From an uncultured Pseudomonadota bacterium (GTDB lineage Bacteria > Pseudomonadota > Gammaproteobacteria > Methylococcales > Methylomonadaceae): a DNA stretch of 64,000 bases. A program made the translations under genes and the position numbers. Location: positions 35,935 through 99,934 of the forward strand of contig CAIYSZ010000057.1 of assembly GCA_903928965.1 (NCBI GenBank), read 5' to 3'. Position 1 is the stretch's first letter. Every line of letters begins with the position of its first letter. This document shows, piece after piece, positions 13,604-31,191 of this stretch. The notes under the pieces are model-generated. The model saw only the letters and a list, made by a program, of their open reading frames with translations, made no database searches and had not been told where the DNA came from.

Positions 13604-16435
13604 ATGACCATCGACTATAAACCGACTTTAAACTTGCCTACTACCGAATTCGCCATGAAAGCCAATCTGGCGCAACGCGAGCCGGAAATTTTGCATCATT
13701 GGCGCGAAATTGAGCTCTATGCGCAAATCCGCGCGCATTGCGCCGGACGGCCGCGTTTCATATTGCATGACGGCCCGCCGTACGCGAACGGGTCGATCCA
13801 CATCGGCCACGCGGTGAACAAGATTTTGAAGGATATCATCGTCAAGTCCAAGACCTTGAGCGGTTTTGACGCGCCTTATGTTCCGGGTTGGGATTGCCAC
13901 GGTTTGCCCATCGAACTGATGGTGGAAAAAAGCGTGGGCAAGGCCGGCGTTAAGATCAGTCCGGCCGAGTTCCGCAAGGAATGCCGTAAGTACGCGCTAA
14001 AACAAGTGAATATTCAAAAAGAGGAGTTCATTCGTTTAGGCGTGCTCGGAGATTGGGAGCAGCCGTATCTGACCATGGATTTTCAATTCGAGGCGGATAT
14101 CGTGCGCGCGCTGGGCAAAATCGCCGCCAATGGGCATTTGCACCAAGGCGCTAAGCCGGTGCATTGGTGCACGGATTGCGGTTCCGCGCTGGCGGAAGCC
14201 GAGGTCGAGTACGAAGACAGGCGTTCGCCGGCCATTGACGTGCGCTTCGGCGTGGTGGACGAGGCGGCGTTTTTGGCGCGTTGCCGGCACGTGGACGGTC
14301 ACGCCGGCGATGGCCCGCTTTCGGTGGTGATTTGGACGACCACGCCTTGGACCTTGCCGGCCAATCAGGCGGTAGCGTTGAATCCGGATTTGGATTATGC
14401 GCTGGTGCAATGTGAAATCGACGGTCAACGCGAACGCTTGCTGGTAGCTGAGCGTTTGTTGAAGGATGCGGCGGTGCGCTGGAGCTTGGGCGAGCATCAT
14501 GTGGCGGCTTATTGCACGGGCCGGGATTTGGAGTGGCTGTTGCTGCAACATCCGTTTTACGCGCGGCAAGTGCCGATTATTTTGGGCGAGCACGTGACGC
14601 TGGATGCCGGCACCGGCGCGGTGCATACCGCGCCCGGCCATGGTCAGGAGGACTATGCGGTAGGTTTGCGTTATCAATTGCCGGTGGATAATCCGGTCGG
14701 CGCTAACGGGGTGTTCTTGCCGGATACGGAATTGTTCGCCGGTTTGCATGTATTCAACGCCAACGACAAGGTGTTGGAGGTGTTGCGCGAGCGCGGCAAA
14801 TTATTGCATCACGAGGCCTTGCTGCACAGTTATCCGCATTGCTGGCGGCATAAGACGCCGATTATTTTCCGCGCCACGCCGCAGTGGTTTATCAGCATGG
14901 AGAAAAACGGTTTGCGCGAGGCGGCTCTAGCCGAGATCCAAAAAGTGGCATGGATTCCTGATTGGGGGCAGGCGCGTATCGAGGGCATGATAGGCAACCG
15001 GCCGGATTGGTGTGTGTCGCGTCAGCGTACCTGGGGCGCGCCGATTGCTTTGTTTGTGCACCAGGACAGCGGCGAGTTGCATCCTGATAGTTTGGCCTTG
15101 ATTGAGCAGGTGGCCTTGCGGGTGGAGCAGGCCGGCATAGACGCCTGGTTTGATTTGCAGCCGGAAGAGTTGCTTGGCGATGCAGCCAAGGACTATGTCA
15201 AGATTTGCGATACGCTGGACGTGTGGTTCGATTCCGGCGTCACGCATGCGGCGGTATTGGCGCGGAGGCCTGATTTGGGCTTTCCGGCCGATTTGTATTT
15301 GGAGGGTTCCGATCAGCATCGCGGCTGGTTTCAGTCGTCATTGCTGGCTTCGGTGGCCATGCATGGCGCGGCCCCGTACCGGCAGGTGTTGACGCATGGG
15401 TTTACCGTGGACGCCGAGGGCAAGAAGATGTCTAAGTCCAAGGGTAACGTCGTTGCGCCGCAAACGGTGATGAAGTCGCTGGGCGCGGATGTGTTGCGCT
15501 TGTGGGTGGCGGGTACGGATTATCGGAGCGAGATGTCGGTGTCGGACGAGATTTTGAAGCGTACCGCCGACGCTTATCGCCGCTTGCGCAATACCGCGCG
15601 TTTTTTACTGTCGAATTTGGCCGGTTTCGATCCGGCCTTGCATGCGGTTCCCGTCGCTGATTTGTTGGCGCTGGACCGTTGGTTGCTGGACCGCGCCTGG
15701 CGTTTGCAAAACGAGGTGATCGAGGCTTACGAGCAATATCAGTTTCAGACTATTTATCAAAAAGTGCTGAATTTTTGCAGTATCGATTTGGGCGGTTTTT
15801 ATTTGGATATCGTGAAGGATAGACAATACACCAGCAAGGCCGACGGTTTGCCGCGGCGTTCGGCGCAAACCGCGATGTATCATGTTATTGAGGCGATGAC
15901 GCGCTGGCTGGCCCCGATTATCAGTTTCACCGCCGATGAGATTTGGCGGACCATTCCCGGCCAGCGCGGGGCGTCGGTGTTTTTGGAGACGTGGTATGCC
16001 GGTTTGGCGCCGTTGGATGCGGATGCCGCGATCAACGGCCTAACCTGGGATTATGTGATGGCGACGCGGGCGGCGGTGAGCAAGGAGTTGGAGCAGTGGC
16101 GCGCCAGGGGCGAGATCGGCGCGTCGTTGAATGCGGAGGTGGAGGTTTATGCCGAAGCGGAATATTACGCCGAGTTGGTCAAGCTGGCCGATGAGTTGCA
16201 TTTTGTGTTTATTACCTCTAAGTGTTTGCTGTTGCCGGTGGCTGAATGTCCGCAAGATGGGGTTGTCACCGAGTTGCCGGGCTTGAAGTTGCGGGTGCAT
16301 GCGTCGTCGCAGCCGAAATGCGTGCGTTGCTGGCATCAGCGCGCCGATGTCGGCGTCAATCCGGAGCATCCGGAGTTGTGCGGCCGATGCGTGGAGAATG
16401 TATTGGGCGACGGTGAGGTTCGGCGTTATGCTTAA
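13604..16435 (+). CDS. ileS: Isoleucyl-tRNA synthetase
   Basis: This 943-residue class Ia synthetase charges tRNA-Ile. The ATG at 13604 follows AGGA and matches the bacterial start [12 protein letters not shown]. The HIGH-type motif is [13 protein letters not shown] (about 62-74), the [13 protein letters not shown] editing-domain motif follows, and the KMSKS loop is [11 protein letters not shown] (about 606-616). The C-terminus has the zinc finger CVRCW...CGRC (about 905-930). Length and layout match the E. coli-type enzyme. Its last 8 bases overlap lspA, the usual gammaproteobacterial pair. Confidence 0.98.
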
Positions 16436-16904
16436 GTGGTTGCGCCTGTCGGCGCTGACGTTGCTATTGGATCAGGTCAGTAAGTTGGCGATAGACCGCG
16501 ACATGCAGTTGTATCAATCCATAGAGTTGATTCCGGGCTGGTTTAATTTGACTTATGTACATAATACCGGGGCGGCGTTCAGTTTTTTGGAAAGCGCCGG
16601 CGGTTGGCAGCGTTGGTTGTTTTCCGGTTTGGCGCTTTTTATAAGCGGGGTGTTGTTGGTTTGGCTAAGAGGCCTGTCGCGGCGGCAAGTTTTGTTGGCC
16701 GCCGCCTTGGCTTTGGTGTTGGGCGGGGCGCTGGGCAATTTGATCGACCGGATAGTGTACGGTTATGTGATCGATTTTCTGGACGTGTATTATCAAAGTT
16801 ATCATTGGCCGGCGTTTAATATCGCGGATTCGGCGATTTGCGTCGGGGTGGGGTTGATGTTGTGGGACAATTTTTTTGGCGGCTCCGAGCAGGATTTGAA
16901 GTAG
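16428..16904 (+). CDS. lspA: Lipoprotein signal peptidase
   Basis: The start at 16428, inside the end of ileS, gives the normal 158-residue signal peptidase II; the track's 16299 start is too long. Four membrane helices are visible. Both catalytic-Asp regions are present: [19 protein letters not shown] and [14 protein letters not shown]. The enzyme cleaves prolipoprotein signal peptides after diacylglyceryl transfer. Lipoproteins encoded here, such as BamD, would be substrates. It is translationally coupled to ileS. Confidence 0.97.
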
Positions 16905-17094
16905 TTTTGTTTTGGTTTATTGCTTGTTTCTTCAAGAATTAAAGGTAGTTGTCTTGGCGTGGTTTACTGCCTAGGCATGGTTCCGGCGGTTGCCATGGCA
17001 TGCCGGCTCCGGCGTCCTCTGTAGTGGGTTTGGCGGCTAACTGGTCGGTTTTGCTTCTTTAATTTTTCAAATATTAACCATCGCATGACAAGTC

Positions 17095-18342
17095 TTGAAT
17101 CAATTTATTAGCTCTAATTCCCCGCCCGCCGTAGTCATCGGCGCGGGGCCGGCGGGTTTGATGGCGGCGGAGCAGTTGAGCGCGGCGGGTTTTGAGACGT
17201 GGGTGTTCGACGCCATGCCCGCGCCGGGGCGCAAGTTTTTGATGGCCGGCAAGGGCGGTATGAATATTACGCATGCCGAGGATTTGGCATTGTTCATTAG
17301 CCGTTATGGTGCGCGGGACGAGCAATTGGCGCCGTTGCTCGGAGAGTTCGGGCCGGAGCGGTTGCGGGCGTGGATGGCGGCGTTGGGTATAGATAGTTTT
17401 GTCGGCAGTTCCGGGCGGGTGTTTCCTGGCGATATGAAGGCCGCGCCGTTGTTGCGGGCTTGGTTGCAGCGTTTGCGGCGGCAAGGGGTGCGTTTTTTTA
17501 TGCGCCATCAGTGGCAGGGCTGGGGTGCATCGGGTGGTTTGCGTTTTATTCATGCCGGCACGGAGGTTTGCGTGGTTGCCGAGGCGGTGGTGTTGGCCTT
17601 GGGCGGAGCCAGTTGGCCGCGTTTGGGCTCGACCGGCGCTTGGACCGGATTTTTGAGCGAGCGCGGGGTGCGTTTGACGCCGTTTCTACCGGCCAATTGC
17701 GGTTTTGAGGTTGCTTGGAGCGAGCATTTGCGTGGCCGTTGCGCCGGCATGCCGTTAAAACCGGTGCGCTTGGGGTTTGTTGATCGTGACGGTCAAGCCT
17801 GGCGGCAATCCGGGGAGTTGGTGATTAGCGAATACGGTTTGGAAGGCGGCGCGGTGTATGCTTTGTCCGCCGTGTTGCGGGAGGCGGTGGCCGCCGAGGG
17901 CGGCTGTGTGCTGACTTTGGATTTGATTCCGGATGTAAGCGAAGCCCAGGCGCTGGCGCGTTTGGCGCGGCCGCGCGGCAAGCAGTCGCTGGCCAATTTT
18001 CTGCGCGGCCGGCTGCGCCTGGACGCGGCCAAGTATACGTTGTTGCGCGAATTGGCCACGCCGGATGAATTGCATGATCCGGTGTCATGCGTGGCCAAGT
18101 TGAAGGCGTTGCCGGTGGTGTTGACGGCCGCGCGGCCATTGGCGGAGGCGATTAGTAGCGCCGGCGGGGTTTGTTTTAGCGGTTTGGACGAGCGTTTAAT
18201 GTTGTTGCGGTTGCCTGGGGTGTTTTGCGCCGGCGAAATGCTGGATTGGGAAGCGCCTACCGGCGGTTATTTACTGACTGCTTGTTTCGCCACCGGCCGA
18301 GCCGCCGGTTTGGGCGCGGCGCAGTGGTTGCGGCGCGGCTAG
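17095..18342 (+). CDS. HI0933/BaiN-like flavoprotein (NAD(P)/FAD-dependent oxidoreductase)
   Basis: The 415-residue flavoprotein has the dinucleotide fold VVIGAGPAGLMAAEQL at residues 13-28 and the family motif GRKFLMAGKGGMNITHAED (about 45-63). The C-terminal FAD motif is FCAGEMLDWEAPTGGYLLTACFATG (about 378-402). It fits the HI0933/TIGR03862 type of predicted oxidoreductases, whose substrates are poorly known. The start must be TTG at 17095: an in-frame TGA lies at 17086 and no ATG precedes the FAD-binding motif. No clear SD is visible. Its TAG stop shares the palindrome CTAG with the stop of the convergent kinase gene. Confidence 0.87.
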   Translation: MNQFISSNSPPAVVIGAGPAGLMAAEQLSAAGFETWVFDAMPAPGRKFLMAGKGGMNITHAEDLALFISRYGARDEQLAPLLGEFGPERLRAWMAALGIDSFVGSSGRVFPGDMKAAPLLRAWLQRLRRQGVRFFMRHQWQGWGASGGLRFIHAGTEVCVVAEAVVLALGGASWPRLGSTGAWTGFLSERGVRLTPFLPANCGFEVAWSEHLRGRCAGMPLKPVRLGFVDRDGQAWRQSGELVISEYGLEGGAVYALSAVLREAVAAEGGCVLTLDLIPDVSEAQALARLARPRGKQSLANFLRGRLRLDAAKYTLLRELATPDELHDPVSCVAKLKALPVVLTAARPLAEAISSAGGVCFSGLDERLMLLRLPGVFCAGEMLDWEAPTGGYLLTACFATGRAAGLGAAQWLRRG

Positions 18343-20234
18343 ATTTTTATAGGCCGCAACCATTTCAACAGCTTGGTGTAAAGCAAGTCTTGGGTAATCG
18401 GTTTGCTGATGAAGTCGTCCATGCCGGCGTCGCGGCATTTTTCTTGTTCTTCGCGTGGGACGCTGGCGCTCATGGCGATAATCGGCAAGGTTTTGAATTC
18501 CGGCATTTGGCGTAGACGTTGCGTGGTCTTGCAACCATCCATGACCGGCATGTGCACGTCCATCATTACGCAATCGTAAGTTTCACTGCGCAGTTTGGTT
18601 AATGCCAGTTCGCCGTTTTCCGCCACGTCAACTTGCACGTTGACATAGCCGAGCAGCTCTACCGCGATTTGGCTGTTAATCAGATTATCCTCGACGAGTA
18701 ACACTTTAGCGCCGTTTAAGGCGGCAAATTCGTTGATGTCTAAGGCAGCGCCGGTGTCCGGCGGTTCTGGCGCACTGACGTCGGTTTCCAGATAGACGGT
18801 GAAAATAAAGGTTGAACCCAGTCCTTTTTCACTAACCACCCGGATGTTGCCATCCATGCGCTCGATCAATTGCCGGGCTATATATAACCCTAGGCCGGTG
18901 CCGCCGTAGTTGCGGGTGACGCTGCTGTCGCCTTGGCTAAACGGTTTGAATAAGTTGGGCATGTGCTCGGGATCAATGCCGATGCCGGTATCCATGACGG
19001 TGAACACTAGGCCGATACGGTTGCCTTGACGGGATATTTCGGAAAAACCGACTTTAATTTCACCTTGTTCGGTGAATTTGATGGCGTTGCCGATCAGGTT
19101 GACCAATATTTGTTGCAGGCGGCGCGGGTCTCCGATAAGTAAATGATTGAGTCTGCTATAGCAAAACGTTAATTGGAGCCCTTTGCTGGCGCATTTGTCT
19201 ATATTTATTTGCCGAATTTGCTCCAACAATTCTTCCAACGAAAACGGGATGTTTTCAAATTCCATTTTCGCCGCTTCAAGTTTTGAAATGTCTAAAATAT
19301 CGTCGATAATGTGCATTAAGGAACGCGAGGATATTTCAACTTTCCGCAGATAATTGCGTATCTTGGGTTCCAGGTCATGTTTCAGACTCAGCTCTATCAA
19401 TCCGTAAATCGCATTCATCGGGGTGCGGATTTCGTGGCTCATATTGGCCAAAAATTGGCTTTTGGCGGCATTGGCGGCCTCGGCTTCATGCGTGGCCGCC
19501 TCCAGTTGCCGGGTGCGTTCGCTGACTTTTGCTTCCAGCAGGTTTTCGGTGCGTTGAATTTCAATCAGCATGCTATTGAACGCCTCGGCTAAGTCGCTGA
19601 TTTCATCGTTGCCTATGTAATCGGAGCGTTTGTTGTAATCATGATCTCGTTCGATTTGCCGCGCCGTATCCGCCAAGCGTAGGATGGGCTTCAGGAAAAC
19701 GTGTTGCAACCGCAGCACAAAAATTCCGGCCACGCTCAAGGCCAGCCAGACGATAAAGGCGTTGATTAAAGCGTTATGCAGCAATAAGTCGTAGGTTTTT
19801 TTGAGATCAGCCGACAGGGTGATTTCGCCGACGACTTTTCCTCGATGCCATATCGGCCGGGTTACTTGCCGGGTTTTCGGCAAGTGGTTCATCCAAAAAT
19901 AAAGCCGCGGGTTGAAATGGCCGCGATATTCCGCCAATGCCTCGCCGGTCGCGGATTCCAAGGCGGCGTAAATGATTTCAGGGTCGTATTCCAGGGCGCG
20001 CAGAATTTCCTGCGCGGTGATTTTATCGTCGAAGATAATCGCCACGCTGCTATTTTGCCCTATCATATCCGCGGTCAATTCAAGTTTTTCATCCAGTTTT
20101 GACTGCAAATCTCTGTATTCGCGTATAAATAAAGTTATGGTCGCTACTAGCAGGGTAACGCCGATCATGAAAACCAAGATACGGGTTAGTTTTCCGACTA
20201 GGGAGACGCGCGGTAAATGATTAAATTGATTCAC
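18339..20234 (-). CDS. Hybrid histidine kinase with CHASE8-type periplasmic sensor, HAMP and receiver
   Basis: The 631 residues run in order as follows. Membrane helix (about 14-36). Periplasmic domain resembling the YfiN CHASE8 sensor (NSSVAIIFDDKITAQEILRAL, about 37-150). Second helix (about 153-175). HAMP (about 176-230). HisKA with NMSHEIRTPMNAI (His near 267). HATPase with NLIGNAIKFT, DTGIGI and GGTGLGL (about 370-485). C-terminal receiver with VLLVEDN and MMDVHMPVMDG (about 505-625). There is no DNA-binding or GGDEF output, so a separate partner should carry the signal on. The start overlaps the yfiR-like stop by 4 bases. Together with the receptor gene upstream this looks like one signalling operon. 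Confidence 0.9.
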   Translation of the reverse strand: MNQFNHLPRVSLVGKLTRILVFMIGVTLLVATITLFIREYRDLQSKLDEKLELTADMIGQNSSVAIIFDDKITAQEILRALEYDPEIIYAALESATGEALAEYRGHFNPRLYFWMNHLPKTRQVTRPIWHRGKVVGEITLSADLKKTYDLLLHNALINAFIVWLALSVAGIFVLRLQHVFLKPILRLADTARQIERDHDYNKRSDYIGNDEISDLAEAFNSMLIEIQRTENLLEAKVSERTRQLEAATHEAEAANAAKSQFLANMSHEIRTPMNAIYGLIELSLKHDLEPKIRNYLRKVEISSRSLMHIIDDILDISKLEAAKMEFENIPFSLEELLEQIRQINIDKCASKGLQLTFCYSRLNHLLIGDPRRLQQILVNLIGNAIKFTEQGEIKVGFSEISRQGNRIGLVFTVMDTGIGIDPEHMPNLFKPFSQGDSSVTRNYGGTGLGLYIARQLIERMDGNIRVVSEKGLGSTFIFTVYLETDVSAPEPPDTGAALDINEFAALNGAKVLLVEDNLINSQIAVELLGYVNVQVDVAENGELALTKLRSETYDCVMMDVHMPVMDGCKTTQRLRQMPEFKTLPIIAMSASVPREEQEKCRDAGMDDFISKPITQDLLYTKLLKWLRPIKI

Positions 20235-20788
20235 TCTTGAATCTCCGCTATTCTCAATAATTTTGAGCTGAGTTTTAAACCGGCGTTTTTCACGGCCGGA
20301 AGATTTACGATTAACTTTAATTTGTCGTCGCGCAAGGCGATTTCTATCATGCCGCCTTGTTGGGCGAAGTTGGGCTGGTCGCTGACGAGCAAGATATGAT
20401 AAGCGTTGGCTATTTCAACCAGCTCCGCTAGTCCCTTGCTTTCATAGCCGACAAACAGAATATTGCATTCCTCTAGGTGTTCGGGAGCTATGTTAATGTG
20501 TACCTGTTGACCGCCGATGGCTTGTCCTTGCAGCGCCGGTAAATGTTCGCGCAAATTGGTTTTGCCGCTAATGCAAATGATATGGGCGCTGGTTTCCGGC
20601 CATTCGGTGAGTTCGGCGAGATGAAAAATGTAGGCAGTTTTTAATTGATATTCGTATACCGGCGGGGCGGCGCGTGAAATGCCGGCAAACAAAGCAAGCA
20701 ATAGCGCAAACCGCCAGCGGTGCGCTAGGCTGGACGGCGGGCGGAAGAACAGCGACGTCAGAAAGCCAAGCATGCCTTTGCCATGCAT
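20231..20788 (-). CDS. YfiR-like (DUF4154) periplasmic protein
   Basis: The 185-residue exported protein has an N-terminal hydrophobic segment (FALLLALFAGISRAAP) and then the DUF4154 pattern: YEYQLKTAYIFHLAELTEWPE, ICISGKTNLREHLPAL, CNILFVGYESKGLAELV, ILLVSDQPNFAQQGGMIEI and a basic C-terminus with LKLSSKLLRIAEI. Pseudomonas YfiR is a periplasmic repressor of the diguanylate cyclase YfiN. Here the next gene encodes a kinase with a YfiN-like sensor domain, so this protein probably gates that kinase. It starts 30 bases after the receptor gene and overlaps the kinase start by 4. Confidence 0.87.
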   Translation of the reverse strand: MHGKGMLGFLTSLFFRPPSSLAHRWRFALLLALFAGISRAAPPVYEYQLKTAYIFHLAELTEWPETSAHIICISGKTNLREHLPALQGQAIGGQQVHINIAPEHLEECNILFVGYESKGLAELVEIANAYHILLVSDQPNFAQQGGMIEIALRDDKLKLIVNLPAVKNAGLKLSSKLLRIAEIQE

Positions 20789-20818
20789 GAGCGAAGCAGG
20801 GTAGTAAGGAGCATGGGC

Positions 20819-22900
20819 TTAAAATCGCCAGCTGAATTGCGCGAAATAACTGCGTTGAATTTGGCTTAACATCGGAATATAGAGTAAGTCCGCGAATTCC
20901 GTGTGTTGTTCGTATAAAAGATTTTGACCGGCAATGGATATTTCCAAGTTTTTGAGCGGATGCCATCCCAGGCGGGCGTCCAGACCGAAATAGGCTGGAA
21001 TCGGAATGTAGTCCTTATAAATTTGATCGACGTAGCGGCCCCACAGGTCTAATTCAACGTCATTGCCGACATCGAAAAGCGAGCGTAGGGATAATTGTTG
21101 TTGTGGGTCGTAGTGCAATTCCGCCAGAGGGTCGCGATACCAATTAAGTTTGGGATCGTATCGGGTGCTGAAACCAATGTAGCTATAGGATGCTTGCAAG
21201 CGCCAGTTATGATTGACGTGGTAATTCATTGCGAGCTCGGCGCCGTAGCTCGTTACTTGCCGGTTATTGACCACGCTGGCGTGCAACACCTCGCCATAGG
21301 GTTGAATATCGGCGTATCCGGTTATGTAAGTGCCTTGCATGCGGTCGTAGATGTTGTAAAAAAAGGCGCTATCCAAATCCAGGTCGCATAACATTCTCCA
21401 ACGCCATCCCAATTCAAACGCGAGCAGGTTTTCCGTTTTCATGTTCGGGTTGCCCTGGGTCAGGACAAATACGTTTTGTCCGGGGATGGGGGTGAAAAGA
21501 TTGATGCTGTGTTGGGCGCGGTTGGGCGCGACCACGCTACGCGACACCGAGCCCCAAAAATTGTGTTGTTTATTGGCGTTCCATAGCAGGCGGATGTTGG
21601 GCTCGGTTTCCCAACCGGTATAGGTGAAATTTGTCACCCGGTTGGCGAGGGTTAATTGCATTGTGCCGCTTAAATCGATTTCGTCTTGTAAAAATACGCC
21701 GCTGTTGTTTTGCGTGAAACTGTCTGGCCGGAATGCCAATGCGTAACTGTTGACGAAGTTGTCGGATATGGTTTGATAGTATACGCCCCACATTAAATTG
21801 TGCCGGCCCATGGTCGGGAAGCGGTCGTGAAAATCTAATACATAATAGGTCCGGTTCATTTGATCCACGGCCAGCGACCAATTGGTGTGAGTCAGCGACA
21901 TATTCAGCTTCCAATTATGGCCGGTGTCGTTTTCATGCTCCCAATGGCCTTGCAGGCTGTAGTTATCGCCGTCTCGGCCGAAATTGTTTTGTTGCCAGTT
22001 CCAATTGGGATTGGCGGCGGCGCCGGTGTTGCTGGTGGAGCCGATAAAATAACCCATGAGTCTGTAGTCGTCTACCTCGCCCTCCAGCATTAATTTGTCG
22101 TGGCTGTTTAACTCGCTGTCGATTCTGAAGTTCGTGGTTTCGGCGTTGCCGAAGTCGGCGGTGTTGCCGATTGGGTTGCTAGGCAGGCTTGGGCTTGCAT
22201 CACGGTAGACTCCATTGCCTGACACGCGGGCATAGGTGTTTTGATCAAGCTTGACGCCGTAACGCACGCCGCCGGACTGTTCCTTGTTGCCGCCGCCGCC
22301 GTTGATCAGGCCGCCTTGGGTTTCCTTGGCGTCGCTGGTGATGATATTGATGACGGCGTTGACGGCATTGGGTCCCCAAAGTGTGCCGCTAGGTCCGCGA
22401 ATGACTTCTATGCGTTTGATATTTTTTAGAAATTGATTTTGCTGTCCCCAATATACGCCGCCGGTCTGTGGATCATATATACTTCGGCCATCAATCATAA
22501 CCTGCAATTTATTGGCGTATAAATCATTAAAGCCGCGGGCGCTAACGCTCCAGTTCCATGAGTTGATGCGCGCGACGTCCATGCCTGGCGCCATGCGCAG
22601 CACGTCGGCGATGTTGGTGGCTCCGGAGCGGCGGATATCCTCGGCGCTGATGACAAAAGCCGCGGCGGCGGTGTTTTTGACGACTTGTTGCTTACGCGCG
22701 AGCGAGGATACGTTTTGATCCATTAATTCATCCAGGCTGAGCGGCAAAATGTCGCAAAGCGCATCCTGGTCTTCAATCAGGGAATCCAAGCTTAATGCGT
22801 CGGCTTGATCAGTGGCCCGCGCTCCGCTAGCGGCGAGTAAGCCGGTCATTGAAACAAGCAATATTCGTAGCGGCTTAAAGAGTTTCGGTTTCAAAGGCAT
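20819..22900 (-). CDS. TonB-dependent outer-membrane receptor
   Basis: The 693-residue protein has a signal peptide (ILLVSMTGLLAASGARA) and a plug domain of about 70-190 (AFVISAEDIRRSGATNIADV, GRSIYDPQTGGVYWGQ, IEVIRGPSGTLWGPNAVNAV). The beta-barrel runs to the C-terminal strand SYFAQFSWRF. The family imports siderophores, cobalamin, metals or glycans, or senses them. No N-terminal STN signalling domain is seen. The plug is most like receptors found beside YfiR-type proteins and kinases. Being first in the operon, it may be the outer-membrane input rather than a bulk importer; the ligand is unknown. Confidence 0.92.
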   Translation of the reverse strand: MPLKPKLFKPLRILLVSMTGLLAASGARATDQADALSLDSLIEDQDALCDILPLSLDELMDQNVSSLARKQQVVKNTAAAAFVISAEDIRRSGATNIADVLRMAPGMDVARINSWNWSVSARGFNDLYANKLQVMIDGRSIYDPQTGGVYWGQQNQFLKNIKRIEVIRGPSGTLWGPNAVNAVINIITSDAKETQGGLINGGGGNKEQSGGVRYGVKLDQNTYARVSGNGVYRDASPSLPSNPIGNTADFGNAETTNFRIDSELNSHDKLMLEGEVDDYRLMGYFIGSTSNTGAAANPNWNWQQNNFGRDGDNYSLQGHWEHENDTGHNWKLNMSLTHTNWSLAVDQMNRTYYVLDFHDRFPTMGRHNLMWGVYYQTISDNFVNSYALAFRPDSFTQNNSGVFLQDEIDLSGTMQLTLANRVTNFTYTGWETEPNIRLLWNANKQHNFWGSVSRSVVAPNRAQHSINLFTPIPGQNVFVLTQGNPNMKTENLLAFELGWRWRMLCDLDLDSAFFYNIYDRMQGTYITGYADIQPYGEVLHASVVNNRQVTSYGAELAMNYHVNHNWRLQASYSYIGFSTRYDPKLNWYRDPLAELHYDPQQQLSLRSLFDVGNDVELDLWGRYVDQIYKDYIPIPAYFGLDARLGWHPLKNLEISIAGQNLLYEQHTEFADLLYIPMLSQIQRSYFAQFSWRF

Positions 22901-22957
22901 ACGACGCGGATGGTTGGATGCGGATGCTTAGATGTTAATGCTCAATTAAGATAAGAG

Positions 22958-22983
22958 CCCGGCGCGCGGGTTTTCGCCGCCGG
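22958..22983 (-). terminator. GC-rich hairpin after the DUF502 gene
   Basis: CCCGGCG (22958-22964) pairs with CGCCGGG (22977-22983) around a 12-base loop, just past the DUF502 stop on the minus strand. It is followed by CTCTTATC rather than a T run, so it is a weak terminator candidate. Confidence 0.4.
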
Positions 22984-22994
22984 GACATTGTGTT

Positions 22995-23570
22995 TTAGGG
23001 CAATTTTTTGATTTCGCTAATGTTTTCGAAATCAGAACCCACGCTGATGATAAAACTGGTGACGGCTTCGATGCTCATTTCCGACCGGATGATTTTATCC
23101 TCGCTGACGATAATGGCGAATCCGGAGGTGGGATTCGGGGAGGTCGGTACGAATAACACCAAACGGTCATCCACTTTATTGGTCACGTAAGCCGGCACCC
23201 AAATGCCTTGCTTGGGATATTCCACGTAAACGACTTCTCGCGGTTCCTGCAATTGGTGGCCGGCGATCATGTTGACTAACTTTTTGGTTACCCGATAAAT
23301 GGTGCTCAATACCGGGATGCGTTCAATCAATTTTTCGATGGCGGCGATGATGGAAAAGCGTCCCGAGCTGACGCGGTGCCCGACATAGGTAATCAGCAGG
23401 AAACTGGTGGCGAATAGTAAAAAAGTCACCACATAATTATCCGAATAGCCGTACACGAAGCGGAACAGATCGGTTAGCCTGTCCTTGACGAACAACACAA
23501 TCTGTACCACCACTGTAATAGGAATGAAGGCCAAAGTGCCTATCAGTGCGTAATTTAAAATTCTTTTCAT
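22995..23570 (-). CDS. DUF502 family membrane protein
   Basis: The 191-residue protein has two N-terminal membrane helices (ALIGTLAFIPITVVVQIVLF and VVTFLLFATSFLLITYVGHRV). A conserved soluble part follows with IERIPVLSTIYRVTKKLV, VVYVEYPKQGIWVPAYVT and VLFVPTSPNPTSGFAIIV, which is the DUF502 pattern. Molecular function is unknown; the family occurs widely in bacteria and plants as an envelope protein. It is the last gene of the uppP-antiporter-hpnN group, 43 bases after hpnN, and may take part in lipid or envelope handling (inference). Confidence 0.9.
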   Translation of the reverse strand: MKRILNYALIGTLAFIPITVVVQIVLFVKDRLTDLFRFVYGYSDNYVVTFLLFATSFLLITYVGHRVSSGRFSIIAAIEKLIERIPVLSTIYRVTKKLVNMIAGHQLQEPREVVYVEYPKQGIWVPAYVTNKVDDRLVLFVPTSPNPTSGFAIIVSEDKIIRSEMSIEAVTSFIISVGSDFENISEIKKLP

Positions 23571-23613
23571 GTTTTTCCCCGTTTGCTGTCGTTATGATCT
23601 ATTTTAATAATGC

Positions 23614-26280
23614 TTACGCCTCGCGCCGGCGTAGCGCCAGCCGGCTGATGGCCGGCAACACCACAAACGTGCAGGTCATAATCCAAAATATCCCTATCGT
23701 TATTACCAGACCCATGCTGGCTATGCCTTGATGCGGCGAAAAGGCCAAGCCGATGAAGCTGGAAATTGTGGTTAACGCGCCGTAAAACATGCCGCGCGCG
23801 GTGCTGGATTGATATATATTTTGCTCTTCGTCTTGGGAATGGCGTAATTTTTCCACCATATGGATGCCGTTGTCCACGCCCAAACCCAATAATAACGGCA
23901 AGGCGATAATGTTGGCGAAGTTGATCGGCGTGCCGGTGAATACCGTGGTGGCCATGGTGAATAATCCGGCCAGGATTAAAGGCGTCATGACCAGCAAGGT
24001 GTCGACCGCGTTGCGGCGGATTAGCAGCAGCAATAGGGTGATGGCGCTCAAGGCGATGATAATGGCTTCCCGGAACGAGTCTATGACCGCCTTCATTGAT
24101 TCCCAATACATGATCGGCAAATCGGTGGCGTTAGGCGCGACCGATTGCACCTCCAGTATGAAATCCTGCAGGTTTTGCAAATCGTTTAAATCGTGTTCCG
24201 GAAAAATTTGCACTCGGTATAGTCCGTCCTTGCTCAGCCAGCGTTCGCGCAAGTCGGCCGGCAAATTTTCCATGCTGATTTCCTCGGCCTTGAAGCCTTG
24301 CAACAATTCGTCCATGACCATGGGCAGCGTGCCAAGCAAGCCGGTTTGCAGGTGTTCATAAAAGACTTCGCGTTCCGGGGAAAAGCGCGCGTTCGCTTCC
24401 TGCAGCGCGCCCTGCAATTGGTTTATGAATGCTTGCAAGGCTTCTTGCTCCTCCGGTTTTTGCCGTTGCGGCAGAACTTGCCGCACCACTTTTAGCATAT
24501 GTTGAATGCTTGCGGTGGGCTCGATGCCGGATTTTATTTTCGGGAAGGTATCGCCTTTGTAGCCCAAGGTGATGGCCATGTCGTCTATCAACGCCAATTT
24601 ATCTTCCTGCGCCGCCGGTACGAAATCGAACAGGCTGCGGGTGTCGTGCACGGATTCCAGCGCGGTTAGTTTTTTTTGCAGGTCGTGGGCTTCCTGAGCG
24701 CTATTCGCCAGTACGGTTAAGGTCATTGGCGAGGTCTCGCGGCTTTTTATTAATTCCTTAAACGCGATAACGGATTCGGTGCGCGGGTCGCGTAAATTGA
24801 TCGGGTTGAAATCGGTTTGCACATGAAACGTCAAAATAACGGAAGCCAACGCCAATAGCGCGGTGACGGCGGTGATTTGCCAGGCGTAATGCAAGGTGAA
24901 ATGGGCGAATGCCTTGGATAGGCGGGAAGTTTCGGGTTGTTCCGTCACGATGGGGTCGGGGCAACACGGGGCTGGCAGTAGTTTTAATAACACCGGCAGC
25001 AAGGTTAACGTGACGAATAAACAGATGAACAAACTGCTGCCGGCTAGCAGGCCTAATTCGGAAATGCCTTGATAGTCGGTCGGGATGAAGGAGTAAAGTC
25101 CGATTGAGGTGGTGAGCGCGCATAGCAGCAGCGAGGGACTGGTGGTGAACAAGGCCTCGCGGATCGCCTTGGTCTTGTCTACGCTGTCTTGTTTCATCAG
25201 GGTGTCGCGGTAGCGTAGGCAAAAATGAATCGCATATTCCACCCCTAAGCCGATATTGGATACGGCGAACGCCACTGAAATCAGATTGAGTTGTTTCACG
25301 GCCACCGAGGCGAACAAGCCGCAAAACACCATACCTATACTCAGGGTGAATAATGTGGCCCACATCAATAGCCAGGAACGGTAGGCTACCAGTAAGATGA
25401 ATAGCACGAGCACGACGGAAAAAATGCTAGCCGTGAAAGTGCCCTCGCTCATGCCCACCATTTCGTCGTGTTCCAGGCCGACCTCGCCAGTGATTTTAAT
25501 GCTGACCGCCGGAAGATTCGGGTCCTGCAAATTGGCGATTTGGCGGCGAATGGCGTTGACTGCCGGTTCCACTGGCAGGATTTGGTTGTAATCGAACTTG
25601 GGCGTGGCCAGGATAAAGGCCTTGGCGGATTGCTCCTTGGTGATATTGTTTTCCGCGATTAATTTTTGCCAGGAAATCAAATTGGGTTGGCCGTTCAGCG
25701 TGCTGTGGATGGAGGCGCTGACTTTGTTGATCAAGCCAAAAATGTCTATCGGCGCTTCACCGCTCTTGTCTTGCTTGGTGAGGGCGTCTTCAAGTATTGA
25801 AAAAAAGCCGTTGAGGCTGGGGTCTTGCGATATGCGGCCGATGAACGGTTGCGCTTGGGCCACGGTAACGGCGAAATCCTGCAATTCGTCATTGTCCAGA
25901 TACAAGAGGCCGTTGCGATGAAAAAATTCGTTATCGTCCGGCCGGTATATGGCGGAGAAGTGTTCGGTGTCGGCTTGCAAGGCTCTGGTTAAACGCCGGG
26001 CGGCGGCCTTGGTCAGTTCCGGGGTGTCGGATTCGACCACGAGTAGCAGAGTATGCATTTCTTGGCTGAACGCTTGCTCAAACTTGCGCCGGTTTTGTTG
26101 GAACGGCGCGTCGGGCGCGATCAATTCGGCGGTGTCGGTGTTGACGCTCAAATGCTCGCTGGTATATCGGACGGCGCCATAGGCAAGGCCCAGCACGATA
26201 CATAAAACCAAAATGGGCGAATAAAGCAGGCTGTTCGCCCAATGGTAGGCAAAATTGGAGATGCGAGTGTTCAGATTCAT
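23614..26280 (-). CDS. hpnN: Hopanoid-associated RND transporter (HpnN-like)
   Basis: The start at 26280, two bases after the upstream stop, gives 888 residues and the family N-terminus; the track's 26439 start lies inside the antiporter gene. It is an MMPL/RND-type permease with an N-terminal helix, a large periplasmic loop (SVNTDTAELIAPDAPFQQN at about 49-67), a helix bundle (about 285-460), a second loop and a final bundle with PLLLGLGVDNGIHMVEKL. That motif and length match HpnN, which moves hopanoids to the outer membrane in Rhodopseudomonas and Burkholderia. No other hpn gene is in the window. The gene ends just before DUF502. Confidence 0.85.
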   Translation of the reverse strand: MNLNTRISNFAYHWANSLLYSPILVLCIVLGLAYGAVRYTSEHLSVNTDTAELIAPDAPFQQNRRKFEQAFSQEMHTLLLVVESDTPELTKAAARRLTRALQADTEHFSAIYRPDDNEFFHRNGLLYLDNDELQDFAVTVAQAQPFIGRISQDPSLNGFFSILEDALTKQDKSGEAPIDIFGLINKVSASIHSTLNGQPNLISWQKLIAENNITKEQSAKAFILATPKFDYNQILPVEPAVNAIRRQIANLQDPNLPAVSIKITGEVGLEHDEMVGMSEGTFTASIFSVVLVLFILLVAYRSWLLMWATLFTLSIGMVFCGLFASVAVKQLNLISVAFAVSNIGLGVEYAIHFCLRYRDTLMKQDSVDKTKAIREALFTTSPSLLLCALTTSIGLYSFIPTDYQGISELGLLAGSSLFICLFVTLTLLPVLLKLLPAPCCPDPIVTEQPETSRLSKAFAHFTLHYAWQITAVTALLALASVILTFHVQTDFNPINLRDPRTESVIAFKELIKSRETSPMTLTVLANSAQEAHDLQKKLTALESVHDTRSLFDFVPAAQEDKLALIDDMAITLGYKGDTFPKIKSGIEPTASIQHMLKVVRQVLPQRQKPEEQEALQAFINQLQGALQEANARFSPEREVFYEHLQTGLLGTLPMVMDELLQGFKAEEISMENLPADLRERWLSKDGLYRVQIFPEHDLNDLQNLQDFILEVQSVAPNATDLPIMYWESMKAVIDSFREAIIIALSAITLLLLLIRRNAVDTLLVMTPLILAGLFTMATTVFTGTPINFANIIALPLLLGLGVDNGIHMVEKLRHSQDEEQNIYQSSTARGMFYGALTTISSFIGLAFSPHQGIASMGLVITIGIFWIMTCTFVVLPAISRLALRRREA

Positions 26281-26282
26281 AT

Positions 26283-27257
26283 TTAGGCGACGGTCACGCT
26301 GTGGATCAAATAGGCGGTATAGGCGAAATAAATTGCCAGCAACGTTAGCCCGTGCGTTCTGCGAATAGAGGATGGCTGTTGGTTTCCACCCGCCCCCAAC
26401 AGAAACATGGAGGCGGTTAGCGCCGCCATTAGCGGCCAATCGCGGTGGAGGATTTCCCGCGGAATGGACATGGGCTGGATAGCGCCGGCCAGGCCCACCA
26501 CCATCAGGGTGTTGAATAAATTGGATCCCAGGATATTACCCAAGGCTAAATCGTCTTGCCCTTTGCGGGCGGCGGCAATGGCCGAGGCCAATTCCGGCAG
26601 TGAAGTGCCGACCGCTATCACGGTCAGGCCGATGATTAAGTCGCTGACGCCCAGATTTTGCGCCAAGGCGACGGCTCCCCAGACCAAGGCGCGGGAACTG
26701 CCGATCAGCAGTAGCAAGCCGGCGAGCAGCCAAATCAGCGCTTGGTCGCGGGATACGGCTTTTTCTTCCAGCTCGGCGTTGATTTCCCGTTCCAGGCTGT
26801 CTTGCTTTTGGCGCATGGTTTGCCGCGCCATCCAAACCATCACGCCGGCGAAGGTTAATAATTGAACCAGGGCGTCGAGCCTTGAAAATTCGCCGTCCAA
26901 GATTAATAGCAGCGCCAGCATGGTCACGCCGAACAGTATCGGCAATTCTCGTTTCAATATGTTCGATTCCACGGCGATGGGCTTGATAATGGCCGTAATT
27001 CCTAAAATCAGCCCAATATTGGCGATGTTGGAGCCGTAGGCGTTGCCCAAGGCGACGCCAGGGTTGTTTTGCAACGCCGAGATGGCGGATACCGCCAGTT
27101 CCGGCGCGGAGGTGCCGAAACCGATGACCAGCATACCGATCAATAGCGGCGGCACACCCATATATTTGGAGATCATTGCCGCGCCGTCGACAAATATGCC
27201 GGCGCTCCAGACTAGCAAAATTAAACCTACTACTATCATTAATAATGGCAACGCCAT
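26283..27257 (-). CDS. Calcium/sodium antiporter (YrbG/CaCA family)
   Basis: The start at 27257 has AAGG 7 bases upstream and gives 324 residues, as in YrbG; the track start is 5 codons earlier. Both alpha-repeats of K+-dependent Na+/Ca2+ exchangers are clear: GFGTSAPELAVSAISAL...GNAYGSNIANIGLILG (about 48-85) and AVGTSLPELASAIAAA...GNILGSNLFNTL (about 210-250). About ten membrane helices flank a charged central loop. The role is cation exchange at the inner membrane. In the Enterobacteria the homologue sits near lipid-transport and Kdo genes; here it precedes hpnN. Confidence 0.93.
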   Translation of the reverse strand: MALPLLMIVVGLILLVWSAGIFVDGAAMISKYMGVPPLLIGMLVIGFGTSAPELAVSAISALQNNPGVALGNAYGSNIANIGLILGITAIIKPIAVESNILKRELPILFGVTMLALLLILDGEFSRLDALVQLLTFAGVMVWMARQTMRQKQDSLEREINAELEEKAVSRDQALIWLLAGLLLLIGSSRALVWGAVALAQNLGVSDLIIGLTVIAVGTSLPELASAIAAARKGQDDLALGNILGSNLFNTLMVVGLAGAIQPMSIPREILHRDWPLMAALTASMFLLGAGGNQQPSSIRRTHGLTLLAIYFAYTAYLIHSVTVA

Positions 27258-27299
27258 AAATAACCTTATCATTCTAAAGAAACGTTCTATCGTAAATTA

Positions 27300-27328
27300 C
27301 CGCGCCCGCCGCGCAGGGACGGGCGCGG
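27300..27328. other. Stable hairpin between uppP and the antiporter gene
   Basis: CCGCGCCCG (27300-27308) pairs perfectly with CGGGCGCGG (27320-27328) around 11 bases. There is no T run on the minus strand. It may partly stop transcription after uppP or protect the mRNA end. Confidence 0.5.
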
Positions 27329-27334
27329 CGGGCA

Positions 27335-28162
27335 TTATTCCGTGGTCCAATTGACCAGGCCGCCGTAGGCGCTGGCAATGACTACAATGCCGAATAAAAT
27401 CCGATACCAGGCGAACACAATGAAATTGTGATGGCTGATATAACGCAGTAAGCCTTTTACGGCGACGATCGCGCTCAAGAAAGCGGCAATAAGCCCTACC
27501 GCGAATAAAGCGCCATCGTCGTGCAGATTGAGCAATTCTCGGTGTTTGTATAAATCGTAGGCGCTAGCCAGCATCAGGGTAGGAATCGCCAAGAAAAAAG
27601 AAAATTCAGTGGCGGCCTTGCGCGATAAACCGAAGAATAAGCCGCCGATAATGGTCGCCCCGGAGCGGGAGGTGCCGGGAATTAACGCGAAAGCTTGCGC
27701 GAAACCGAGTTTTAGCGCGTCCAGCGGTGTGATATCGTCCACGCTTTCCACGGTGATTTTATGTTCGCGTTTTTCCGCCCAGATAATGATGAAGGCGCCG
27801 ACGATGAAAGCCAAGGCCACCGGGATAGGTTTAAACAGCACCGCCTTGATGTGTTTACCAAAAGCTAGACCCAGCAAGGCCAGCGGTAAAAAGGCGATAC
27901 CTAGGTTCAGTACGAATTTTTGCGCCTGCCGGTCATGGAATAGATTGCGAATGACGTTAAATATCTTGACTCGGTATTCCCAGCAAATGGCTAAAATGGC
28001 GCCTACTTGAATGACGACCGTAAACACTTTTGCTTTTTCGTCATTAAAATGTAATAAGTCGCCAGCCAGGATGAGATGTCCGGTGCTGGAAATGGGTAAA
28101 AATTCGGTCAGACCTTCCACCACGCCTAGTATGACTGCGTTAATAATTTGATTGATATCCAT
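27335..28162 (-). CDS. uppP: Undecaprenyl-diphosphatase
   Basis: The 275-residue integral membrane phosphatase of the BacA/UppP family recycles undecaprenyl pyrophosphate for peptidoglycan and O-antigen synthesis. Diagnostic motifs are [20 protein letters not shown] (about 15-34) and [17 protein letters not shown] (about 158-174). About eight helices are visible. It heads the minus-strand group antiporter-hpnN-DUF502, all envelope-lipid related, with a 77-base gap and a hairpin after it. Confidence 0.96.
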
Positions 28163-28229
28163 TTTTGCTATTGGGGGGCATTGAAGTGAAGTTTGAAACT
28201 AAATTACTATTTGATTAAATTAAGATTTT

Positions 28230-28285
28230 CTAACAATGAAAATGCATTAGTCCTCCTAATGTAGGGTAATCAAAAAAAATGTCAA
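28230..28285 (-). promoter_or_regulatory. Possible uppP promoter and five-codon leader ORF
   Basis: On the minus strand a perfect TTGACA (28285-28280) is followed after 16 bases by TACATT (28263-28258), a plausible promoter for uppP. The same stretch holds AGGAGG, 4 bases and ATG, opening a five-codon frame (MHFHC, stop at 28230). The SD and ATG lie in a small hairpin, CATTAG-GAGGA-CTAATG. The two readings conflict, because the promoter would start RNA at about 28251, inside the SD. Confidence 0.35.
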
Positions 28286-28357
28286 GCTCGTGTATGCCGG
28301 CGCTAAATCAATGCTAAGTCCGGGTACATTATAGGCCGCCTTTTTACCGGTGAACGG

Positions 28358-28846
28358 CTATTCGACGGATTGGCCCAGTATGCGCCATTGATCGAAATAC
28401 GCGGCTTGACCCGCGGCCGCGCCTTGTTCATTGTACACATTCCAGATTTTGACTTGACTGATTAAAAAGCGGGCGCCGGATTTGGCGATTCTGACGCCAT
28501 GGTAATCGGAAACATAACCTTGGCTTGCCGCTAGCGCCAGCCATTTTTGCCGGTCTTGCTGGCAAGCCGCCTCGGCGGATGAACGCGAGGGCGCGCCGAC
28601 TATCTCCTCCCAGCTCATTTCAAACAAGCGTTGCGCGGTTAAATTGGCGTAATTGAACAAGGGATCGCTGCTTGCATCATGCGTCAGCAGGGCGAATTTC
28701 GCATGATAAGCCAGTTCGGCGGCGTTGCTTTGGCCCGCCGCGGCAAATAGCGGTTGCCCGAGCAGTTTTTGATAGCTGGCGAATACCAACGCCAGATGCG
28801 CGGCGTCGTAAGCGTTGCTTGAAGAGGGTTCTGGTTTGCTTGTCAT
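28358..28846 (-). CDS. MEKHLA domain-containing protein
   Basis: The 162-residue soluble protein has the PAS-like MEKHLA signature PLFNYANLTAQRLFEMSWEEIVGAPSR (about 57-83) and the later GYVSDYHGVRIAKSGARFLI and VKIWNVYN. MEKHLA is related to PAS domains and was named from plant HD-ZIP III proteins; in bacteria it usually stands alone and its ligand is unknown. It has no output domain. It is a single gene, divergent from the glycosyltransferase. Confidence 0.88.
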   Translation of the reverse strand: MTSKPEPSSSNAYDAAHLALVFASYQKLLGQPLFAAAGQSNAAELAYHAKFALLTHDASSDPLFNYANLTAQRLFEMSWEEIVGAPSRSSAEAACQQDRQKWLALAASQGYVSDYHGVRIAKSGARFLISQVKIWNVYNEQGAAAGQAAYFDQWRILGQSVE

Positions 28847-30115: not shown

Positions 30116-30493
30116 CCTAGGGCGGCTTGTGCAAAAGCCGCGAAAGTCGCGGTTAGGATTAGCGCGATGCCAACAATGACGCAATAATTTACTAATTGAT
30201 CGTCCGCGACGACTCGGCGTTTGTGCCGCGTCAAGCTTGCGTAGCTGATGAGGAACACGCGCAGCGCCGGAACCTGCAAACGCGGATCGGTGAATCGTTG
30301 CCAGGGGGGTGACGGGTAGATAGGGGTTCAGGATGACGAAACCGATGAAAAACGCCGCCATGGCATGGGTTCAGGTAATCTGTACGCTAGTCATTTGATA
30401 GCCGCAGGCGCAGGTTTTGCCCGAACCGAGTACGCCGTCGCTAAGATGTCCGGAGCCGCAACGGGGGCAGCGAAGTTGCGCCGTCAAGTCCAT
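30112..30493 (-). pseudogene. Broken zinc-ribbon plus membrane-helix gene
   Basis: The frame opens with an ATG at 30493, overlapping the kdpE end: MDLTAQLRCPRCGSGHLSDG and then KTCACGYQM, a zinc-ribbon-like fold. It meets TGA at 30371 after 40 codons. The same frame continues past the stop with AAFFIGFVILNPYLPVTP, a membrane helix. A shift of one base in a run of six C (30304-30309) then restores an open frame with PWQRFTDPRLQVPALRVF and a second helix (NYCVIVGIALILTATFAAFA), ending TAA at 30112. The simplest reading is one ancestral protein of about 125 residues broken by a stop and a frameshift. Two separate tiny genes, or a sequencing error, remain possible. Confidence 0.5.
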
Positions 30494-31191
30494 GCATTGC
30501 CTTCCTCGTGCAAACGGTAGCCGACGCCGGGTTCGGTCAATAAATAACGCGGCCGCGCCGGGTCGTTTTCTAATTTGTGCCGCAATTGCCCCATGTAAAT
30601 GCGCAGGTAATGGTTGTGCTCGATAAATGCCGCGCCCCACACTTTTTCCAGCAATTGCCGGTGGGTGACGACGAAGCCGGCGTTATGCGCTAGTGTGGCC
30701 AATAACTTGAATTCCAATGGGGTTAAATGGATTTCGCGCGTGCCGACGAATACCCGGCGTTTAGTCAGTTCGATTTTTAGTTCGCCGCTTTGAAAAATTT
30801 CCAGCACGCCGCCCGGCGCTTTGCCGGCGCGGCGCAGCAAGGCGTTGATGCGTGACAGCAATTCCGCGTTGCTGAACGGCTTGGTCAGATAATCGTCGGC
30901 GCCGCTGTCCAAGGCTTGCGTGATATCCATTTCTTGATTGCGGGCGGACAATACGATGATCGGTAAGTCGGTGCGTTTGCGCAAGCGGCGGATTAAATCC
31001 TGTCCGTCAATGTCCGGCAGTCCTAAATCCAGCACCAATAAATTGGGCGGTTTAGAGCGCATCAATTCCAAGGCGTCCAGTGCGTTTTCGGCCGCGTGGA
31101 TGATAAAGTTGTGATGCCCCAATGTAGTGGTCAGCAACAGGCGAAATTGCGGATCGTCCTCGATCAGCAATAGGGATGGGCGTGTCTTCAT
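30484..31191 (-). CDS. kdpE: KdpE-type response regulator
   Basis: The 235-residue OmpR/KdpE-family regulator has a receiver with acidic EDD (about 10-12), phosphoacceptor Asp in NLLVLDLGLPDIDG (about 51-64) and conserved Lys in YLTKPFSNAELL. The winged-helix output is HLTPLEFKLLATLAHNAGFV...VWGAAFIEHNHYLRIYMGQLRHKLE, with the KdpE-like LLTEPGVGYRL end. It should be phosphorylated by KdpD, encoded just upstream with a 4-base overlap. Its classic target kdpFABC is absent from this window. Confidence 0.93.
   Translation of the reverse strand: MKTRPSLLLIEDDPQFRLLLTTTLGHHNFIIHAAENALDALELMRSKPPNLLVLDLGLPDIDGQDLIRRLRKRTDLPIIVLSARNQEMDITQALDSGADDYLTKPFSNAELLSRINALLRRAGKAPGGVLEIFQSGELKIELTKRRVFVGTREIHLTPLEFKLLATLAHNAGFVVTHRQLLEKVWGAAFIEHNHYLRIYMGQLRHKLENDPARPRYLLTEPGVGYRLHEEGNAWT

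Follow-up and report, generated by a model that had tools for sequence, protein, structure and literature searches.

The locus described here raises the question of what a TonB-dependent receptor does in an operon whose other two genes encode a YfiR-like periplasmic protein and a hybrid histidine kinase. It lies in a 64,000-nucleotide stretch of DNA from an uncultured methane-oxidising bacterium of the Methylomonadaceae (assembly GCA_903928965.1, contig CAIYSZ010000057.1, positions 35935 to 99934), the whole of which is called the window below. The three open reading frames form a tight operon on the minus strand, as do all features of it given here: the receptor (693 amino acids, 20819-22900), the YfiR/HmsC-like protein (185 amino acids, 20231-20788) and the kinase (631 amino acids, GTG start, 18339-20234). 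A gap of 30 bases separates the first two and an overlap of 4 bases joins the last two, exactly as a first-pass annotation made from the sequence alone had placed them. With a probability of roughly 0.6, we read the locus as a Yfi-type operon in which the receptor takes the outer-membrane place of YfiB and the hybrid kinase the place of YfiN. This reading is anchored in what sequence comparison and prediction provide, namely the three families, the operon and its conservation, the YfiR-binding patch on the CHASE8 sensor and the conserved YfiR fold.

The kinase is built of a transmembrane helix, CHASE8, a second transmembrane helix, HAMP, HisKA, HATPase_c and a receiver (REC), with every Pfam match above its curated cut-off. 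The periplasmic sensor (residues 44-140, 19815-20105) matches the CHASE8 family PF17152 with an E-value of 3.7e-16 and 59.7 bits against a cut-off of 27, in line with the likeness noticed earlier. The stretch that the first-pass annotation had quoted from it includes VAIIF (residues 64-68, 20031-20045), which aligns to AAVVF of YfiN/DgcN and is thereby the equivalent of the published YfiR-binding patch; in Pseudomonas aeruginosa YfiN, YfiR-insensitive mutations cluster partly in this motif at residues 66-70 (PMC3375315). Among 127 aligned CHASE8 sequences, the phenylalanine of the patch is kept in 121 and an aspartate two places on in 123. As in the YfiR-YfiN[PAS] modules, yfiR here directly adjoins a sensor with an AAVVF-type patch. 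A model of the sensor half (predicted local distance difference test, pLDDT, 79) shows a predicted PAS/Cache-like sheet between two membrane helices, with WalK and a LapD-type periplasmic domain as nearest structures. The remaining domains are HAMP (residues 179-227, 19554-19700), the HisKA dimerisation and phosphoacceptor domain (residues 257-321, 19272-19466), the catalytic HATPase_c domain (residues 368-482, 18789-19133) and REC (residues 511-621, 18372-18704), C-terminal to which Pfam detects no Hpt domain.

The assignment of the middle protein is equally direct, as PF13689 covers residues 47-182 behind a signal-like N-terminal stretch (4.9e-32, 111.4 bits, cut-off 24.9) and P. aeruginosa YfiR accounts for all the best PDB matches of its AF2 model (pLDDT 86; 4zhu, E 6e-8). 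At positions 160, 162 and 183, where hydrophobic residues are implicated in P. aeruginosa YfiR (PMC3375315), it carries L157, L159 and I180. C72 and C108, whose span covers 20465-20575, are the equivalent of the redox-sensitive pair Cys71-Cys110 of P. aeruginosa YfiR and are nearly invariant, being cysteine in 132 and 135 of 142 aligned YfiR sequences. The second pair, Cys145-Cys152 in P. aeruginosa, is absent from the window protein and present in only 2/142 and 1/142 sequences, so that the four conserved cysteines of the YfiR of a complete YfiBNR system are reduced to the first two. Neighbours of this second pair touch YfiB in the crystal (PMC4655355), and its rarity agrees with YfiR proteins that make no contact with YfiB.

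After YfiR itself, the model matches small substrate-binding proteins (6k1x, 5z6v, 3lkv, 3lft), of whose fold YfiR is a single lobe. This brings up a different explanation, in which the receptor only transports: it would import a small molecule that YfiR binds in the periplasm, and loaded YfiR would signal to the kinase while receptor and YfiR never touch. P. aeruginosa YfiR does bind vitamin B6 or L-Trp, using the pocket for F57 of YfiB (PMC4887326), and the hydrophobic character of this pocket is kept in the window protein (L163, V166, L173, L178), but the reported affinities are in the ten-millimolar range (PMC4887326). We regard such a carrier as unlikely, albeit worth keeping in mind when the co-variation of the three proteins is considered below.

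Whether the three genes belong together at all was assessed in two independent sampling frames. Matches to the receptor alignment in named genomes put the window either within Methylomonas or close beside it. Within this genus, 17 of the 20 congeners drawn have orthologues of the kinase's sensor half with 51-62% identity, compared to 36% outside the genus; the triad is intact in 14 of these 17 Methylomonas orthologues, and receptor orthologues share 54-66% identity. The laboratory methanotroph Methylomonas sp. LW13 also carries the operon (L163). A class-wide sample, an even draw of 274 genomes, contained PF13689 in 39 of them, and the neighbourhoods retrieved from it yielded 65 YfiR genes. 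Taking a receptor as adjacent when it lies on the same strand within 400 bases, 41 of the 65 have a receptor neighbour and 43 have a CHASE8 neighbour; both are present for 25 genes and neither for 6, and the CHASE8 gene lies downstream of YfiR in 42 of the 43 cases. The second frame, a scan of GTDB genomes that started from the receptor only, returned 24 receptors, of which 22 have YfiR next to them and 19 also a CHASE8 kinase directly after YfiR. It reached Methylomonas, five species of Azospirillum, Thiocystis, Nitrosomonas and a verrucomicrobial bin. The conserved co-occurrence that had been proposed as a test of the operon is therefore borne out by 14/17 orthologues and 22/24 GTDB receptors.

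A chance or housekeeping neighbourhood without joint function could explain that the genes also occur singly, as the receptor is missing from two related genomes (L129, L130), and the kinase is missing at another locus (L168) and interrupted at a third (L121). Given some tens of receptors per approximately 4000 genes, however, we estimate the adjacency expected by chance at about 1 in 100, and the gene order remains unchanged from Methylomonas to Azospirillum and beyond in both frames. A single-chain fusion (L076:5912-8629) speaks against it as well: there, a YfiR domain after a signal-like stretch is followed by a long coiled coil, a membrane helix, PAS, HisKA, HATPase and REC, encoded divergently from a receptor gene approximately 20 bases away. 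We thus consider a meaningless neighbourhood very improbable.

The outer-membrane position is occupied differently than in YfiBNR. None of the 65 class-wide YfiR genes has a YfiB-like gene beside it, while the Escherichia coli control returned its one; as the OmpA profile built from E. coli YfiB found few sequences, the neighbourhoods were also searched with a simple OmpA motif, with the same result. The OmpA/Pal-like lipoprotein is likewise missing from the window, where no OmpA-like open reading frame lies within 5 kb of yfiR. The proposal that the receptor stands where YfiB stands in the Yfi system is hence supported in its anatomy, with 0/65 YfiB-like neighbours versus 41/65 receptors. The receptor itself consists of a Plug domain (PF07715, 9.4e-21, residues 75-183, 22352-22678) and a TonB_dep_Rec_b-barrel domain (residues 285-661). 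Pfam gives no match to the STN domain of FecA-type signalling receptors up to an E-value of 0.1, and the operon holds neither a FecR-like anti-sigma gene nor a sigma gene. Although FecA-FecR-FecI also has a TonB-dependent receptor adjoining envelope signalling genes, its type of signalling does not apply here, as had been concluded before from the missing STN domain. The LSLEEL motif before the plug was considered as a YfiR-binding peptide and rejected as not specific, since receptors without a YfiR neighbour carry it too.

To what extent the three proteins evolve together was measured by comparing pairwise distances in 42 receptor-YfiR-kinase triads, thinned to 31 and 27 representatives. YfiR and CHASE8 distances correlate with r 0.63 (partial 0.49), and the association persists after thinning (Mantel p 0.0005 for 31 and 0.0015 for 27). 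With CHASE8 given, the partial correlation of YfiR with the catalytic core that this kinase carries behind the sensor is only 0.04, so YfiR is tied to the sensor and not to the kinase core. Together with the published binding motif, this sensor-specific co-variation supports the coupling of YfiR to CHASE8 that had been proposed earlier. CHASE8 and the receptor show a partial correlation of 0.38-0.41, likewise still significant after thinning. The distances accordingly tie the receptor to the module, although not demonstrably to YfiR.

Several observations weigh against our reading of the locus. Once CHASE8 is accounted for, the receptor-YfiR partial correlation does not exceed 0.09, and at stricter thinning the YfiR-receptor association is not significant; moreover, a common phylogeny underlies the distances of all three (receptor, YfiR and CHASE8), and the kinase core is the sole control for it. 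We found no receptor sequence motif specific to receptors with YfiR neighbours. In L129 and L130, YfiR and kinase occur without a receptor alongside, and 18 of the 65 class-wide YfiR genes adjoin CHASE8 without a same-strand receptor, which means that the operon can do without the receptor gene. Finally, the one GGDEF protein of the source genome (L184, G000:C77:19256-19726) has no REC domain. A signal from receptor via YfiR to the kinase, as envisaged in the first-pass annotation, is a conjecture, and the near absence of receptor-YfiR co-variation fits the transport-only explanation introduced above. A CHASE8-receptor partial of approximately 0.4 would, however, be unexpected for a pure transporter. 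Pairs in the opposite sense, with a receptor neighbour but no CHASE8 neighbour, make up 16/65 of the class-wide YfiR genes, so that orphan receptor-YfiR pairs are common.

On the output side, the window kinase ends in HisKA-HATPase-REC instead of the GGDEF domain of YfiN. The exchange of GGDEF for a kinase noted in the first-pass annotation is real, but it is neither unusual nor new, as Malone et al. 2012 (PMC3375315) already described YfiR-YfiN[PAS] modules whose output is a kinase, Hpt or GGDEF-EAL and most of which lack YfiB, and called the module widespread and highly modular. The word replaced needs correcting as well, for the kinases of many relatives feed a GGDEF protein, either through a following REC-GGDEF gene or within one chain. 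Counting only operons with enough flanking sequence to see the next gene, a REC-GGDEF gene directly follows 14 of 61 kinase-type operons versus 0 of 15 GGDEF-type operons (one-sided Fisher p 0.033); in the class draw alone, the figures are 9/29 and 0/7 for kinase-type and cyclase-type operons, respectively (p 0.11). Two receptor-YfiR operons combine everything in one chain of CHASE8, HisKA, HATPase, REC, REC, Hpt, REC, PAS, GGDEF and EAL, and custom profiles revealed a similar layout in L148. These proteins of approximately 1650 residues (L144:7288-12210, L057:8493-13484) thus carry a full phosphorelay plus GGDEF-EAL behind a single CHASE8 sensor. In a tree of 103 sensor halves, parsimony counts 10 changes between kinase and cyclase, but the well supported branches require only 3; resolution is poor deep in the tree, and we therefore speak of several changes only.

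For the source genome itself, cyclic di-GMP (c-di-GMP) as output was considered and rejected: the sole GGDEF protein found has no REC, which leaves an output through c-di-GMP, as in the relatives, without support in this genome, although in an assembly of 3.25 Mb and 92% completeness its absence is not proven. Profile searches counted 31 receivers, three Hpt domains (one of them in a separate REC-Hpt protein, G000:C92), one GGDEF and two EAL domains, which is very little machinery for c-di-GMP considering that the genome has four YfiR genes. In the Methylomonas orthologous operons, domain searches revealed no response regulator gene adjoining the kinase, and the next gene is mostly convergent.

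This last result bears on a further alternative, in which the receptor is the target and not the source of the signal. YfiR and the kinase would then sense the envelope or redox state and control the whole operon, the receptor being part of an uptake system under their regulation. The identical gene order would follow from co-transcription alone, and the nearly invariant C72/C108 pair corresponds to a redox-sensitive pair of P. aeruginosa YfiR, with a redox input being discussed for YfiR (PMC3375315) and for HmsC (PMC5550408). Against this stand the lack of a response regulator gene after the kinase in the orthologous operons, receptor-YfiR pairs with GGDEF-EAL outputs (L139, L141), which by themselves exert no transcription control, and the outcome of the search for a Fur box 5' of the receptor, where no consistent match rose above shuffled sequence. 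We judge this alternative to be quite improbable.

Returning to a receptor in YfiB's place, the operon would most likely work as follows. By analogy with the Yfi system, YfiR would bind the VAIIF patch of CHASE8 and thereby keep the kinase fixed in a single signalling state. A receptor that is ligand-bound or TonB-energised may then draw YfiR off the kinase or change YfiR, and the kinase could phosphorylate its own REC and pass the phosphate through a separate Hpt protein to a response regulator from another locus; in relatives, this downstream step would often lead to c-di-GMP. The receptor as input is put forward here as a suggestion, and likewise tentative are the relay partner of the kinase and the direction of control.

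Compared to YfiBNR (AwsXRO, TpbB) of P. aeruginosa and YfiR-DgcN-YfiB of E. coli, the operon shares the YfiR fold and family, CHASE8 with its AAVVF-type patch, the HAMP relay and the order of yfiR before an overlapping sensor gene. It differs in having a TonB-dependent receptor instead of an OmpA-like lipoprotein, a histidine kinase plus receiver instead of GGDEF, and a YfiR without the disulfide Cys145-Cys152 near the YfiB interface. The modules of Malone et al. have the same core of YfiR and a YfiN-like sensor on a (hybrid) kinase without YfiB, and since a word search of the literature for YfiR together with TonB did not bring up that paper, its main text does not name the receptor partner. 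HmsCDE of Yersinia, compared by family name only, shares a PF13689 protein, HmsC, and a tripartite envelope signalling (PMC5550408), but not the outer-membrane partner and output. Three consecutively numbered NCBIfam models match the operon proteins, each below its curated cut-off: NF053590 TonB_dep_TOL0244 is the best match of the receptor (499.9 bits, cut-off 645), NF053591 YfiR_like_TOL0243 that of the YfiR-like protein (85.5 bits, cut-off 125), and NF053592 HK_near_YfiR_like covers the whole sensor half of the kinase (144.2 bits, cut-off 194). The existence of one model per protein means that such a set has already been modelled by curators, while the three low scores mark the window copy as a divergent branch of the TOL_0244/TOL_0243/YfiR-associated kinase triad. 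Our literature search found no paper joining YfiR, a TonB-dependent receptor, a histidine kinase and an operon; five papers containing both YfiR and TonB appear incidental from their titles, and a paper on YfiR and kinases in Acinetobacter baumannii turned out to be unrelated to the triad. The YfiR-kinase core is thus already published, the literature searched did not reveal the receptor as its usual partner in the outer membrane, and the REC-GGDEF wiring downstream of the kinase is what the present survey adds.

Related loci show further variation. The source genome encodes two CHASE8 kinases in total and further receptor-YfiR groups. Its second system (L015, G000:C25, 179-6223) consists of YfiR, receptor, YfiR and a CHASE8-HAMP-HisKA-HATPase-REC-REC-Hpt kinase, and with one receptor flanked by two YfiR genes it resembles the Thauera two-YfiR kinase system of Malone et al. 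2012 (PMC3375315). At another locus (L016, G000:C7, 6117-8616), a receptor-YfiR pair has no CHASE8 kinase next to it. A Nitrosomonas bin (L172:1063-10619) carries REC-GGDEF, receptor, YfiR, receptor, receptor and YfiR in a row on a single strand, and no CHASE8 protein was seen there. In one relative (L121:9808-13411), the orthologous kinase is split by a transposase-like open reading frame of 476 amino acids on the opposite strand. At two loci (L063:8012-10417, L064:6105-8523), YfiR genes lie directly 3' of histidine kinases with another region in place of CHASE8, in which a custom CHASE8 profile gives no match, and YfiR may therefore serve other sensors too. Elsewhere in the window, a KdpE-like regulator and a KdpD kinase (897 amino acids) are encoded at 30484-33881, and no Rfam RNA, riboswitches included, was detected in 16000-28500.

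The window operon is a typical example of an arrangement that is common, and this arrangement is an under-noticed, genuine variant of Yfi signalling. Beyond this, we tentatively suggest, at somewhat less than even odds, that YfiR signalling in Gram-negative bacteria usually receives its outer-membrane input from TonB-dependent receptors, with YfiBNR as the better-studied special case. Such a route would require no STN domain, anti-sigma or sigma factor, and its outputs (kinase, kinase to REC-GGDEF, GGDEF-EAL) would be interchangeable. The Yfi field still asks what activates YfiR-controlled sensors, and most YfiR systems lack YfiB (PMC3375315). If receptors of this family were the missing input, a signalling role that can be tested would be assigned to many uncharacterised receptors, and FecA-FecR would be joined by a second general mechanism of signalling driven by receptors. 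One sensor with exchangeable outputs furthermore offers a natural series for studying how the same switch in the periplasm can act on either a cyclase or a kinase.

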